Below, piece after piece: positions 10,659-40,674 of a stretch of 64,000 nucleotides of DNA (position 1 is the first letter of the stretch; every line of letters starts with the position of its first letter). Source of the stretch: Acanthopleura granulata (lineage: Eukaryota; Mollusca; Polyplacophora; Chitonida; Chitonidae). The stretch lies in contig JABBOT010000022.1 in the NCBI GenBank assembly GCA_016165875.1, positions 4,986,844 to 5,050,843 on the forward strand. The letters are read 5' to 3'. The translations under genes were made by a program, and so were the position numbers. The notes below the pieces were generated by a model that was given only the letters and a program-made list of their open reading frames with translations, was not told the origin of the DNA and did no database searches.

Positions 10659-10933
10659 ATGAATCCTTTGCCAGTGAATATGGGGAAGAAGCAACAGACC
10701 CGAAAAAGTCTGTATTCTGGCCTGCAGTATGTTGGCTCTCACATAGTACCAGATGATCATGTGTTGTCTCGTCTATACGCAAACCAGCAAAGCGTTCATG
10801 TGCGATTTGTGTCCCGCACTAAACGGCCTCGTATCCCAACTGTTCGTGAACTGATTGATCAGCTGTCCAAGAAACATGAGCGTTTGTTACGAGAAGAGCT
10901 GGAGCAAGAGAAGAGTGCTGTATCCAGTGACAG
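10659..10933 (+). CDS. alternative first coding exon A of an unrecognised gene (joins 37728)
   Basis: ATG opens 275 coding bases (91 codons plus two bases, phase 2) up to donor GACAG|GTGGGA. An in-frame TGA at 10638-10640 with no acceptor in between supports the ATG as a true start. The product begins MNPLPVNMGKKQQTRKSLYS, is basic, and ends in a charged, probably helical stretch (about residues 65-85) rich in Glu, Lys and Arg. Phase 2 matches the acceptor at 37728, giving a Ser codon (AG+T) at the junction. Joining is inferred from phase; no transcript is visible. A second in-frame ATG occurs at codon 8. I recognise no domain. Confidence 0.6.
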
Positions 10934-12460
10934 GTGGGACATCTGGAAGATGAAAATATTTATTAATTTATTCATTTATTATTTGATTATAGTGTGGAAT
11001 TCTTTTGCATTTACAATAACCATCAACATTATTGTTGGAAAAAAACATAGTGCTGTTAAAGATATATGAGTCATACTGGTGGAATGGTATTTGGGAAGTT
11101 TTGCTATTTTAGATAATCAGGGCCATATCTAGAAAAAAATTGTAGGTTCTGATCCCAAACCTCATAAATACAGCATGACTCTGCATTAATAAGTTTTATA
11201 AAATGCTGTCTGAGGGCATTCAAGTATTTGAAAGACAGATATTTGTATGATACTTAACCTTTTATTGCTATACCATCATATTTATGTTCAATTCGCTTGT
11301 TATTTTTAAAACAGCTTGAATCATTTGGGCGCCTAACAGTTAGGGGGCCCTAAACGTTTTCTAGAACTAAAATGGCTCTAGATATGTCCCTGCTAATAAT
11401 ACAGAAATGAGTAAAAGAATTCAACCCATGTATCTTTCAATCTTGGGGGGAAATGGCTTTCTTGTCATTCCAATGCTGTTTATCCACATTTTCAGTTTGT
11501 TAGCTCTTGGGTGTGAATGGTTTACATGTATATGCAATGAGCGAATTTGTGCATACAAAAATTTTATAACTCAGGTCAGATTGGGCTTTCTAAAAAAAAT
11601 TAGGTTACCAGGAAGGTGAAGAAACACTGAGGTTGCTCAAGTGGGCTAGTAGTGGAAAAAAATAAAGAATATTCAGTTTGCATGGGATTAAATCTCTGGT
11701 TAAGGATAATATAATGTCATAAAATTGAGCATAGCTATGCCCGTTTATTTAAAGATTCTGTTTTAATTTATAATCTCCCATAAATCTGACCTTTCATGAA
11801 TTGTTTCACTAACAAGCCCTCCTGGAGATCAGATTTAGGCAAGCCAGACTTACCAAGCTCTTCAGGTGTAAAAGCTGAGGAAATAGCTTGAGGAAAGCCA
11901 TTTATGAGTGTAGCATCAATTGAGTTCAAATGAAGCAAAACCTAAGTTCTATAATTCTGCATAGCTAAAGAAGAAAAGAAAAGACTGAATATCTTGCCCT
12001 GTAGTCAGCGCATGTAAAAACCTATATAGATGTTGGGCTAAATCAAGCCAATTACCTGACGTGGCCGACTAAGCCTGTGAGCTTTAGATTATGTCTTAAT
12101 TCCGGCTTAGTGAGAAATAGAATTATGGTCATGACAATTGGTTTTGTTGTGTCATTATGCTCTGTGCAAAGCCCCTAGCTATAACACAGTAGCGTGTGCG
12201 TGTTGTTGAAATGGGTTGACACAGTGGAGTGCTGAGATTCTCACTCCAATACTTCAGAGCTCCTGATTTTTGTGGAGGTTAATATCACATCTGAAACACC
12301 TACGTTTTAGCCTATTCACGTGACACACAGCTGTGTGGGGATAGTGCTACCTGTATATGACTCCGTTTAATTAGTTAACAGTTCATGCCTCTTCATGGGA
12401 ACTGAGGTATTTTATACCTATGTTTCATTCATTCTGAGATAGATAACATGTATGTTAGAC

Positions 12461-12559
12461 ACTGTGCCTGTAGCCTTGGGGGAAAAGGATAGAAACTGTG
12501 CTTGTAGCCTAGGGTAAAAGGATAGAAACTGTGCCTGTAGCCTAGGGGGAAAAGGACAG
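12461..12559 (+). repeat. tandem repeat, about 34-37-bp unit, three copies
   Basis: Three copies of an ACTGTGC(C/T)TGTAGCCT...AAAAGGA(T/C)AG unit, intronic between alternative exons A and B. Confidence 0.8.
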
Positions 12560-37700: not shown

Positions 37701-37727
37701 CATTTGTCTTTCTTTGTGTCTTTGCAG

Positions 37728-40674
37728 TTCCACCAACACATCATCTGGTCCCTATTCCACTGACATCCTGTATGGAGGTGACATAGACAAGGGGGGCCAG
37801 GAGCTTCGGCTGGGACACTCCAATGTGGTAGATCTGGACAGAGTAAAGGAGGCCAAGAGGGACAGGGCGGAGTTGAGGGAGCAGAGGAAGGGCCTCTTCT
37901 CCAGAGATTCTCTGTCATCATCATTTGACAGAGGTACCCTGGCTGATGGAAGCTCTCAGCTTATTTTCATTACACATGTGTACTGCAGATGAGGTTTCTT
38001 GCGGGTTCTTCACGGGTTCTTGAAACCACTGACAGTATTTGAAATTTGTTTAAAGGTGTTTGAGACAGACGAAGAAGAGGGTAATTTGGAATGTCCTTAA
38101 AGTATTCGATTTTTCAAGGTGAAATATCATATTGCGCTGTGCATGAAATGGGCACATAACGTTGATAGAAAGTGCTGAAAGACATAGGATATTACTAATT
38201 ATGGGTCTTTGAAAATTGGTGAAAAACATGATCTTTCCCGAGTGGGAACGCTGTGCAGACACACGGCAATGGTATTTTGAACAACAGATTACCTTCATGT
38301 AAAACTTACCTGAAAGAGGAAAATGTTTCTCTCTGAGTCCAATTCCAGCTTCAGACAGGGATTCCTGATGATCTCTTGAATCTTGCTTGGTCTGTGAATT
38401 GATTAAGCGGTTGGCAGTGTTTGTAGGGTCGTTTTGGCAGTGGTCGGTGAAGTTTGCTGGAGATCACTAGTCTACCGCCACTTCTGGAAACACATGTATC
38501 AGAGCAGAGTATGAAAACGAGTGCTTCACATGTGGGAAAGTTACCAGTCAAAGACTGGTGGTGTATACAGTTTCCTTTTCCAAATAGACTGACCAAATAG
38601 ACACAGTGTATAGAATGAAATATTTTATAATTTGTAAAGTTGTATGAATTAGGGAAGATGATTCCTAGAAAATGTTGGTGTATTTACATGTGAACCTGAT
38701 TAAGGTCAATGTTATGACTTAGTATCATCACTGTGATGTGAATAACTGAAAAAGTGTTAGAATGTTAACTCCAGAGCCATCATACACCAAAGACTCAATA
38801 TAGAAAAAAATGTCTATGATCCCACGTATTAAAATCTCATTAGATTATAGTTTTGCTTCTTCATGGGAAGAAGATCATTGTATATTTGCCAAATCTTACA
38901 AGGATTTGTGTGGCTTTTTGTGTTTGTACATGTATTCAGATGTTTGAGTGCTGTGATTGAGTAGGCTCCTAGTACTGTACCTGCAATATTTCTATCTGGT
39001 TATGTACTGAAAATGATGTGTGGCTGTACAACAAAGAAACCGATGATAATTTACCTGTATTCCTCCATGCTGGAAACTAACTAGTTGTACATTTGTTTTT
39101 TTTATGTCTTACCTGTGAACAGTAAGTCTGGACAAAGATGACCGGCCTAACCCCTCCATCTCCAACTTGGCCAAAATCAACCAGTTCAAACCCAATGGCC
39201 TCAGAAATAATCTAGTCCCCAAAGGTAAGAAGGATAGTTATGATCAGATCAGGATATTTACATGTGCATTAATTGGTCGTGGGTTTCTCCTTGGCTATGC
39301 CCTGTTGTCTCCCACCATAATGCTGGCAGCCGTCATATAAGTGAAATATTCTTGAGTAATATGAGCACAAAATACCAGTCAAATAAATGAGTAAATAAAT
39401 AAATGTACAGTAATAAGTTGATAACATATAAATCCTTTTTGAACAGGTTGTAATAAGCATATTATAGTAATGAAACCTGCAAACATTGTCTCTGTGGCTT
39501 CAGTTATGAACTAACTTTTGAGTCCTTTAGGACAAAAAAGCCAAGCACATAGAGATTGCTGCAGTAAGGTCATGTTGCATGTACCAGGCTTCATTGTAAT
39601 AGGAATGTCCATTGGATTTCTCTTTTCTGGTTAGTCACCAGTCCTGTGCCCTTCTACATATAAATAACCACATAGCTGTTTTTTCTGTGCAGGGCGAGGT
39701 GGCCAGGATGAACTCGTTGCCATGGGAACCATCTGGAGCCCAAACCTCCATCCCAAACCTCTGCGGACCTTGTCAGTGTGTGCAAATGGCAGCAGCACAA
39801 CAGCAACGTCTTCATCGACGCCCAGGCGTGTCTCCTCAGTGTCTGTGCCCACTGGGGTGTACAGACAGACACTCAATGTGCCCAGTCATCAGGTGGCCAG
39901 CAGATCCTCTGCAAATGGTATGTGCACTGTCAGATTTGGAACATGCACTAAAATGTGCATAGTGAGCTTAATAAATTGGTTCTGACAGATGGGAGTGGGA
40001 AAAAGTTTTTGTCCTTATAAATTTTGGAAGTATTCTTGTTATTGAATGACAGTAAATGACCTAAAATTTTGCCAAGAAAATGTCACAAAATATTATTTTT
40101 GGGGCCAAGGCTTTTTCCAGTAGGAGATCATCCAATCTTCAGGAAAAGAAACGTTAGAGCACTACTAGGATCAGTGGAAATATGAGAGTAAGTCTGATCT
40201 GTAACTAATTCTGGAGGGAATTTTAAGTCATTTAACATTGATTGTTTGGATTGGACTCCTGCCTAGTGTGTCCTAGTTTGAAAGACAGCCACTCAGCCAG
40301 GACTTGCCCCAAGTAAACACTAACCAAATAACTGTAAGGTGGTAAAAACAAGTGAAAAGTTTGTTTTTTGTTTTTTTCTGACCATAATGCATGCAGATAC
40401 ATGTAAATCAAGTTAGATTTCTTAGTCTGAATAAATAAGCAATTTGCCCAAATTATAACTCGCGGTAATTTCCAAACTGTATATCTGTGTTGCTGAGCCT
40501 ACTTTGTTTCTGTCTCCAGGTCCGGATCAGAAGTATGGCGACCCTTTGGTAGGAGCACCCCCACAGTACCAGCAGAGGCTGGCGGAGCTATCCACACTAG
40601 AGGCAGACACTGTCAGATATGAAAGGACTCGAAAATTAAAGAAAAAACAACCTAAACAGGACAGAGATTCTTGA
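37728..40674 (+). CDS. constant 3' block (four exons) of the alternative-first-exon gene; unrecognised protein
   Basis: Exons are 37728-37933, 39123-39224, 39693-39917 and 40520-40674 (TGA at 40672). Acceptors are TTTGCAG, GTGAACAG, TCTGTGCAG and TCTCCAG; donors are GTACCC, GTAAGA and GTATGT. The first exon enters in phase 2 and the other joints are all phase 1, so one frame of 228 residues runs through. Residues 1-70 are Ser-rich, then charged (DLDRVKEAKRDRAELREQRK). The middle is Ser/Thr/Pro-rich and looks disordered. The end is a helical, basic segment (YQQRLAELSTLEADTVRYER, then RKLKKKQPKQDRDS). There is no signal peptide or membrane segment. I do not recognise the family; a cytoskeletal or scaffold role would be a guess. 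Eight upstream ATG exons end in the matching phase. Confidence 0.75.
39273..39405 (+). mobile_element. SINE, 5'-truncated, forward
   Basis: It starts within the central body (GGTCGTGGGTTTCTCC), includes CTCCCACCATAATGCTGG and ends AAATAAATAAATG. It lies in the intron after constant exon 2. Confidence 0.85.

Follow-up and report, generated by a model that had tools for sequence, protein, structure and literature searches.

How does one gene come to offer its protein several different beginnings? This question is raised by a 64,000-nucleotide stretch of the genome of the chiton Acanthopleura granulata (assembly GCA_016165875.1, contig JABBOT010000022.1, positions 4,986,844 to 5,050,843 of the forward strand), here called the window, in which eight short open exons lie upstream of a constant block of four exons. 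As judged from sequence comparison, the locus is very probably a single DUF5537-family gene, with alternative first coding exons arrayed along its 5' half. Homology places five of the eight as different N-terminal exons on one and the same block, since their counterparts directly precede this block in other proteins of the family. Below, E1 to E8 denote the eight upstream exons, the block denotes constant exons 1 to 4, and P0001 to P0041 are labels of the DUF5537-family proteins; positions are those of the window.

Eight upstream exons and one constant block

The constant block, traced by splice sites and reading frame, occupies 37728-40674 on the plus strand and translates into 229 residues, joint codon included, and the whole predicted protein has about 260-320 residues. 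Its exons are the following:

37728..37933, plus strand: constant exon 1, spliced frame, entry phase 2, exit phase 1
39123..39224, plus strand: constant exon 2, spliced frame, phase 1-1, KINQFKPNGLRNNL
39693..39917, plus strand: constant exon 3, spliced frame, phase 1-1, conserved QDELVAMGTIWSP
40520..40674, plus strand: constant exon 4, TGA stop at 40674, DUF5537 segment QQRLAELSTLEADTVRYERTRKLKKK

The Pfam profile DUF5537 (PF17690) matches the last of these exons with E 1.2e-8 and 35.2 bits, above the curated cut-off of 28.4, and the C-terminal segment is thus a member of the family, with a match that covers only positions 114-159 of the 160 in the profile. The Pfam scan found no family for the eight upstream modules or for one alternative frame of E8. 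In addition, constant exon 1 found no match among plasmids, as expected, or among solved structures.

The upstream exons are read as follows:

10659..10933, plus strand: E1, alternative first coding exon, 91 codons and two bases, donor CAG/GTGGGA; conserved core within it, LSRLYAN...IPTVRELIDQLSKKHERLL
12841..13019, plus strand: E2, alternative first coding exon, 59 codons and two bases, donor CAG/GTGAGA
17404..17504, plus strand: E3, unproven candidate first exon based on open reading frame, phase and donor only, 33 codons, donor ATT/GTAAGT
20050..20162, plus strand: E4, alternative first coding exon, 37 codons and two bases, donor TGC/GTAAGT, starting MSFPDYVAKFRHKM
23259..23410, plus strand: E5, probable first coding exon, not proven, 50 codons and two bases, donor TAG/GTAAGG
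25123..25274, plus strand: E6, candidate first coding exon, not proven, 50 codons and two bases, donor ATT/GTAAGT
30819..31093, plus strand: E7, alternative first coding exon, at most 91 codons and two bases, donor AGG/GTAGGT
34669..34766, plus strand: E8, alternative first coding exon, 32 codons and two bases, donor TTT/GTAAGT, SFLIPECPWIFPIR

The frame of E3 is open from 17119, with its earliest ATG at 17137. E7 is conserved from 30921 on (SAMVVTPV...LRQIYGARSEITLLGE), and it may start at 30819, 30843 or 30927.

All eight exons, with their GT donors, are present where a sequence-only reading of this stretch had placed them, and its count of five GTAAG donors (E3, E4, E5, E6, E8) and one GTGAG donor (E2) holds; E1 has GTGGG and E7 has GTAGG. 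When recomputed, the length from ATG to donor leaves two bases in 8/8 exons, so that a single splice phase, phase 2, is found at all variable donors, as that reading had proposed. It had also proposed that the acceptor at 37728 requires phase 2, and indeed a long frame follows only in this phase, the other two frames stopping after 11 and 18 codons. As for the in-frame stop upstream of the start, the earlier reading was right about its presence but counted seven exons with it, while one lies 1-8 codons 5' of the first ATG in all eight. Because the phase is uniform, any module can legally be joined to the block, and two modules can be chained if the exon concerned has an acceptor.

Minisatellite arrays lie in the long introns that separate the first exons, at 28017-29402, 17907-18413, 14534-14912, 21153-21393 and 26011-26211, and a further one follows just 3' of the gene at 41152-41639.

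Relatives of the block and of the upstream exons

A search with the constant block returned two relatives at E ≤ 1, one of which, isoform X2 of LOC135471455 from the chiton Liolophura sinensis (263 residues), starts MSFPDYVAKFRHKM and consists of E4 joined directly to the block. This is the closest protein relative, with 88% identity in the block and 94.6% in E4. In all, the family comprises 41 proteins: 36 came from a profile search, 33 of them carrying the DUF5537 label, and 14, of which 5 were new, from a wider search that scored only the 7994 candidates with the most shared words. Named sources among molluscs are a chiton, abalones, Gigantopelta, Nucella, Bulinus, scallops, Mya and Mytilus, and those outside molluscs are a nemertean, sea stars, a sea urchin and an acorn worm; in the databases these proteins are annotated only as uncharacterised or hypothetical. 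Twenty-eight of the 41 are listed as numbered isoforms, and isoforms of the same locus differ chiefly ahead of the constant block. The proposal that one protein carries many N-terminal tails is hence borne out in related proteins, including the chiton isoform of E4 and block.

To relate the front ends of these proteins to the upstream exons, 30 of them, cut by pattern, were searched by tblastn against the window and a 30 kb flank (the set excludes P0001, P0002, P0027-P0030 and the later-found P0037-P0041), which gave, at E ≤ 2, 57 rows on the plus strand and 63 on the minus strand. Five exons were matched in the reported frame, with best E values of 5e-15 for E1, 2e-7 for E2, 2e-16 for E4, 2e-11 for E7 and 8e-6 for E8, against a best value of 0.11 on the minus strand, which served as control. 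The best match of E1 is Gigantopelta X6 (P0014), with Argopecten X4 (P0008) and others also matching, and that of E2 is Pecten maximus isoform X1 (P0005), at residues 169-211 directly ahead of the block; E2 also reaches a z score of 5.6 against Haliotis cracherodii X2 in a shuffle test. E4 is matched in Mytilus (71% identical) and Mya (74% identical), and E7 is matched best by Haliotis rubra X3 and also by H. rufescens X7, Mya X5 and Gigantopelta X2/X3. The match of E8 is a Mya protein (P0026, hypothetical protein MAR_037688); it is in the phase-2 frame and covers residues 97-122, directly ahead of the block. The phase-1 frame of 34589-34766, which looked more coding, was tried for E8 and is ruled out by this match, so the frame given above stands. 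The sequence-only reading had held that a lack of conservation would count against the array; conservation is found for E1, E2, E4, E7 and E8, and E3, E5 and E6 have no tblastn match. Separately, a plus-strand stretch about 20 kb upstream of the window (L002:161-220) resembles the end of an E4-type module (YGDYWVPTL) at E 0.009, a value better than that of any control match on the minus strand.

The joint between module and block can also be followed across species. The chiton constant exon begins with T, and in 25/25 proteins whose block starts with SSSTPT (other starts, in P0001, P0007, P0028 and echinoderms, were excluded from the count) the residue before it can be encoded with T or C at the third codon position. 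Among distinct six-residue mollusc ends, 23/23 are compatible with T or C and 14/23 with A or G; nine of the 23 are informative and the rest allow any base. Given that one in five module residues is not encodable with T or C, the chance of this is about 0.005 if the ends are independent, which they are not wholly. In the sea star Patiria a codon ending in A or G is required, the joint residues being K, K and T; here, too, a single base serves within the species. These counts fit one phase-2 joint conserved across molluscs.

Chance frames, internal cassettes and foreign exons

Several observations weigh against reading the eight as an array of first exons. The numbered isoforms are database models, and E8 is matched by one relative alone. 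E3, E5 and E6 have no in-frame tblastn match among the 30 front ends, and six plus-strand matches off the exons reach 0.009-0.092, slightly better than the control. In Pecten X1, 168 other residues precede the E2-type module, and in P0026 the E8-type module is preceded by an E7-type module, so that E2 and E8 could be internal there; the E7-type module is internal in Gigantopelta X2/X3. In addition, the AlphaFold2 model of the Liolophura isoform, built on a 22-sequence alignment, has a mean predicted local distance difference test (pLDDT) score of 51, with 171/263 residues below 50; helices are modelled at residues 5-35 (E4 module) and 227-254 (DUF5537), and the remainder is without structure.

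The alternative that survives best, and for which the balance is about even, is that only some of the exons are real, namely E1, E2, E4, E7, E8 and perhaps E5, and that E3 and E6 are chance frames ahead of a GTAAGT. How readily chance produces such frames was counted on both strands of window 1-37000, from ATG-led open reading frames ending at a donor rated by a simple score (maximum 9). At a score of at least 7 and at least 48 codons, the plus strand has 3/2/9 candidates in phase 0/1/2 and the minus strand 2/2/3; of the nine phase-2 candidates on the plus strand, six are reported exons and the remaining three are other frames; E4 and E8 do not reach this threshold. With at least 36 codons the counts are 8/5/10 (plus) against 4/2/6 (minus), and with a score of at least 6 and at least 30 codons they are 43/32/45 against 24/19/27, without phase excess. 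Similar candidates thus occur outside phase 2 and on the minus strand as well, and since open frames with good donors are common, the eight-exon pattern is suggestive but by itself no proof. What lifts the array above chance is homology: 5/8 exons have counterparts among the front ends that this gene carries in other molluscs (snails, abalones or bivalves), which marks the arrangement as real and old.

For E3, E5 and E6 themselves, the lack of a tblastn match has to be set against the fact that all three are in phase 2, have good donors and follow closely on an in-frame stop. Codon use was ranked by mean score against 845 chance candidates, of which 2% score as high as E5 (5% by total score), 11% as high as E6 and 25% as high as E3, the last being unremarkable. 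The corresponding values for the exons verified by homology are 14% (E1), 13% (E2), 8% (E4), 2% (E7) and 39% (E8), so that E5 beats most verified exons and E6 is like E1 and E2. The test is weak, as 39% of chance candidates reach the verified E8, and a low score of E3 means little. Training of the codon scores on long open frames was dropped, as it yielded a mixed set of 50.

Beyond those of the five matched exons, weak likenesses were found when the modules were compared with 35 front ends under 300 shuffles. E3 resembles Gigantopelta X4 with z 4.7 (0/300 shuffles as high, 4/300 for the long form of E3), and E5 resembles Patiria P0035 with z 5.1 (0/300) and Pecten X1 with z 4.1 (1/300). However, E2 and Mya P0012, an unlike pair since the latter has an E4-type module, also reach z 4.7, so a z near 5 is not counted as proof. 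In profile comparison (hhalign), E5 and the echinoderm MTLKLP modules gave a probability of 15%, and neither E5 nor E6 showed likeness to the scallop and mussel ECVRLRL type. No homologue of E6 was found by tblastn or profile comparison, and its best shuffle z among the 35 front ends is 2.9. A hydrophobic-x-hydrophobic-Arg motif is present in 6/8 window modules (E1, E2, E4, E5, E7, E8), against 1.95 in shuffles, with 2/5000 as high; having been picked post hoc, and occurring in 2/8 other module types where 1.57 are expected, it is rejected as evidence and kept as a lead. Taken singly, E5 is probably a real exon, E6 is somewhat favoured as one, and for E3 the scales tip slightly towards a chance frame.

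It is unlikely, though not negligible, that the eight are internal cassettes spliced from a single upstream promoter and a non-coding leader. Chained modules in relatives and the 168 residues ahead of the module in Pecten X1 indicate that such exons can have acceptors: Gigantopelta X2/X3 carry an E1-type and then an E7-type module, and Mya P0026 carries an E7-type and then an E8-type module with a long stretch between, the order in both matching that in the window. P0026 is given less weight, being listed as hypothetical and having this long stretch. Several phase-2 AG sites lie inside the E7 frame (30923-30980) and are possible acceptors for its internal use. On the other hand, each exon has its own ATG with a stop 1-8 codons upstream, which a translated cassette would not need, an observation compatible with a shared non-coding leader. 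Moreover, isoforms in relatives open with E1-type (P0008, P0010, P0014), E4-type (P0001, P0003, P0007) and E7-type modules (P0016, P0017, P0023). The E2-type module stands near the start in Haliotis cracherodii X2; as other residues lie ahead of E2 and E8 in their nearest relatives, these support exons that join the block more than they support first exons, and the standing of E2 and E8 as first exons is less clear. It is very improbable that some exons belong to other genes or mobile elements and lie upstream by accident, which is contradicted for the five whose counterparts in relatives are attached to the DUF5537 block, and no second DNA copy of any of the eight was found at E 0.01 within 294 kb.

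In an array of alternative first coding exons, each first exon would have its own promoter, a transcript from one of them would splice past the first exons downstream of it to the acceptor at 37728, and promoter choice would set the N-terminal module. Chaining of modules is suggested as well by the Gigantopelta proteins with E1-type and E7-type modules. From the structure model, the product is probably a small adaptor that is disordered over most of its length and takes exchangeable modules at its N-terminus; by analogy with plectin, the front end would decide its location or partner and the constant tail would do a common job.

Age of the layout, surroundings and known arrays

The layout is not confined to molluscs. 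In the sea star Patiria, three front ends (P0034, P0035, P0036) stand on a homologous block, so that alternative front ends are either older than molluscs or arose twice; sea stars share the layout, with front ends other than those of the chiton. It is tempting, if speculative and rather doubtful at present, to regard DUF5537 genes as an ancient "N-terminal switchboard" that predates the protostome-deuterostome split, in which modules are promoter-selected, phase-matched, chainable and gained or replaced between phyla, and the tail is constant. If true, a small disordered adaptor would have kept each of its modules separately conserved for hundreds of millions of years.

The suggestion that the locus may be undescribed holds as far as the literature was searched: no paper naming DUF5537 was found, none on this gene turned up under mollusc alternative first exons, and nothing was found on multiple variable first exons with bilaterian scope. 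The gene organisation is of a known kind and the gene family is apparently undescribed. An array in an unstudied family, present in chitons, snails and bivalves and, with a different set of modules, also in sea stars, offers a comparative system for the gain, retention and loss of first exons. The conservation of modules, such as that of E4 in Mytilus and Mya, implies module-specific functions, and most of the protein diversity that such a locus offers would escape a gene model with a single start.

Other genes surround the array. On the minus strand, 8-10 kb ahead of window base 1 (L003:94-906 and L003:1225-1632), is a gene for a Nup153-like nucleoporin (RanBP zinc fingers PF00641; PF08604), apparently head-to-head with the array. 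Downstream are an open frame at 47268-47894 on the minus strand that encodes a profilin domain (PF00235, E 6e-22), near-complete, a divergent, near-identical pair of tubulin genes (by Pfam; alpha type by eye) at 50445-51626 (minus) and 57964-59145 (plus), and a further tubulin copy as an open frame at L004:6931-8154 (plus).

How far the array resembles known ones depends on the kinship of its exons. All 36 pairs of nine frames were compared with 1000 shuffles each, and three pairs had p ≤ 0.06, the lowest being 0.01, which is about chance. All-against-all comparison at E < 1e-3 separates the types E2, E4 and E1/E7/E8, the last linked only via chained proteins. Six mollusc types have no exon in the window (P0013/P0021, P0018/P0022, P0006/P0011, P0009/P0037/P0038, P0024 and P0025); leaving out P0037 and P0038, their best plus-strand tblastn value in window or flanks is 0.090, which is not taken as real.

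The best-known arrays of alternative first exons are those of vertebrates, and in the clustered protocadherins the variable exons arose by duplication. UGT1-type clusters are described in PMC1885805 as tandem variable first exons, each spliced to one constant exon set; for Ugt1, Gcnt2 and Ugt2a the paper reports duplications of the variable exons, by tandem duplication in Gcnt2, and it calls these clusters vertebrate-specific. The tandem variable exons and constant set of UGT1 and the clustered protocadherins are found in the chiton too, but the chiton exons are not recognisable as duplication paralogues, and of the three parallels drawn by the sequence-only reading, these two fail on this point. 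The Pfam entry DUF5537, to which the C-terminal segment belongs, offers a family name, without a function or a word on an exon array. Plectin fits best, although its protein is a giant plakin and the chiton protein, at about 260-320 residues, has DUF5537 as its only Pfam match, with no plakin or calponin-homology domain. The first exons of plectin are not known to be related to one another. The plectin gene (PLEC) has short first exons that encode different N-terminal pieces without recognisable kinship, and the same is found in the chiton. About a dozen first exons are counted for plectin in PMC8468861. Thus, with no detectable kinship among its exons, the chiton array resembles that of plectin and not that of UGT1.

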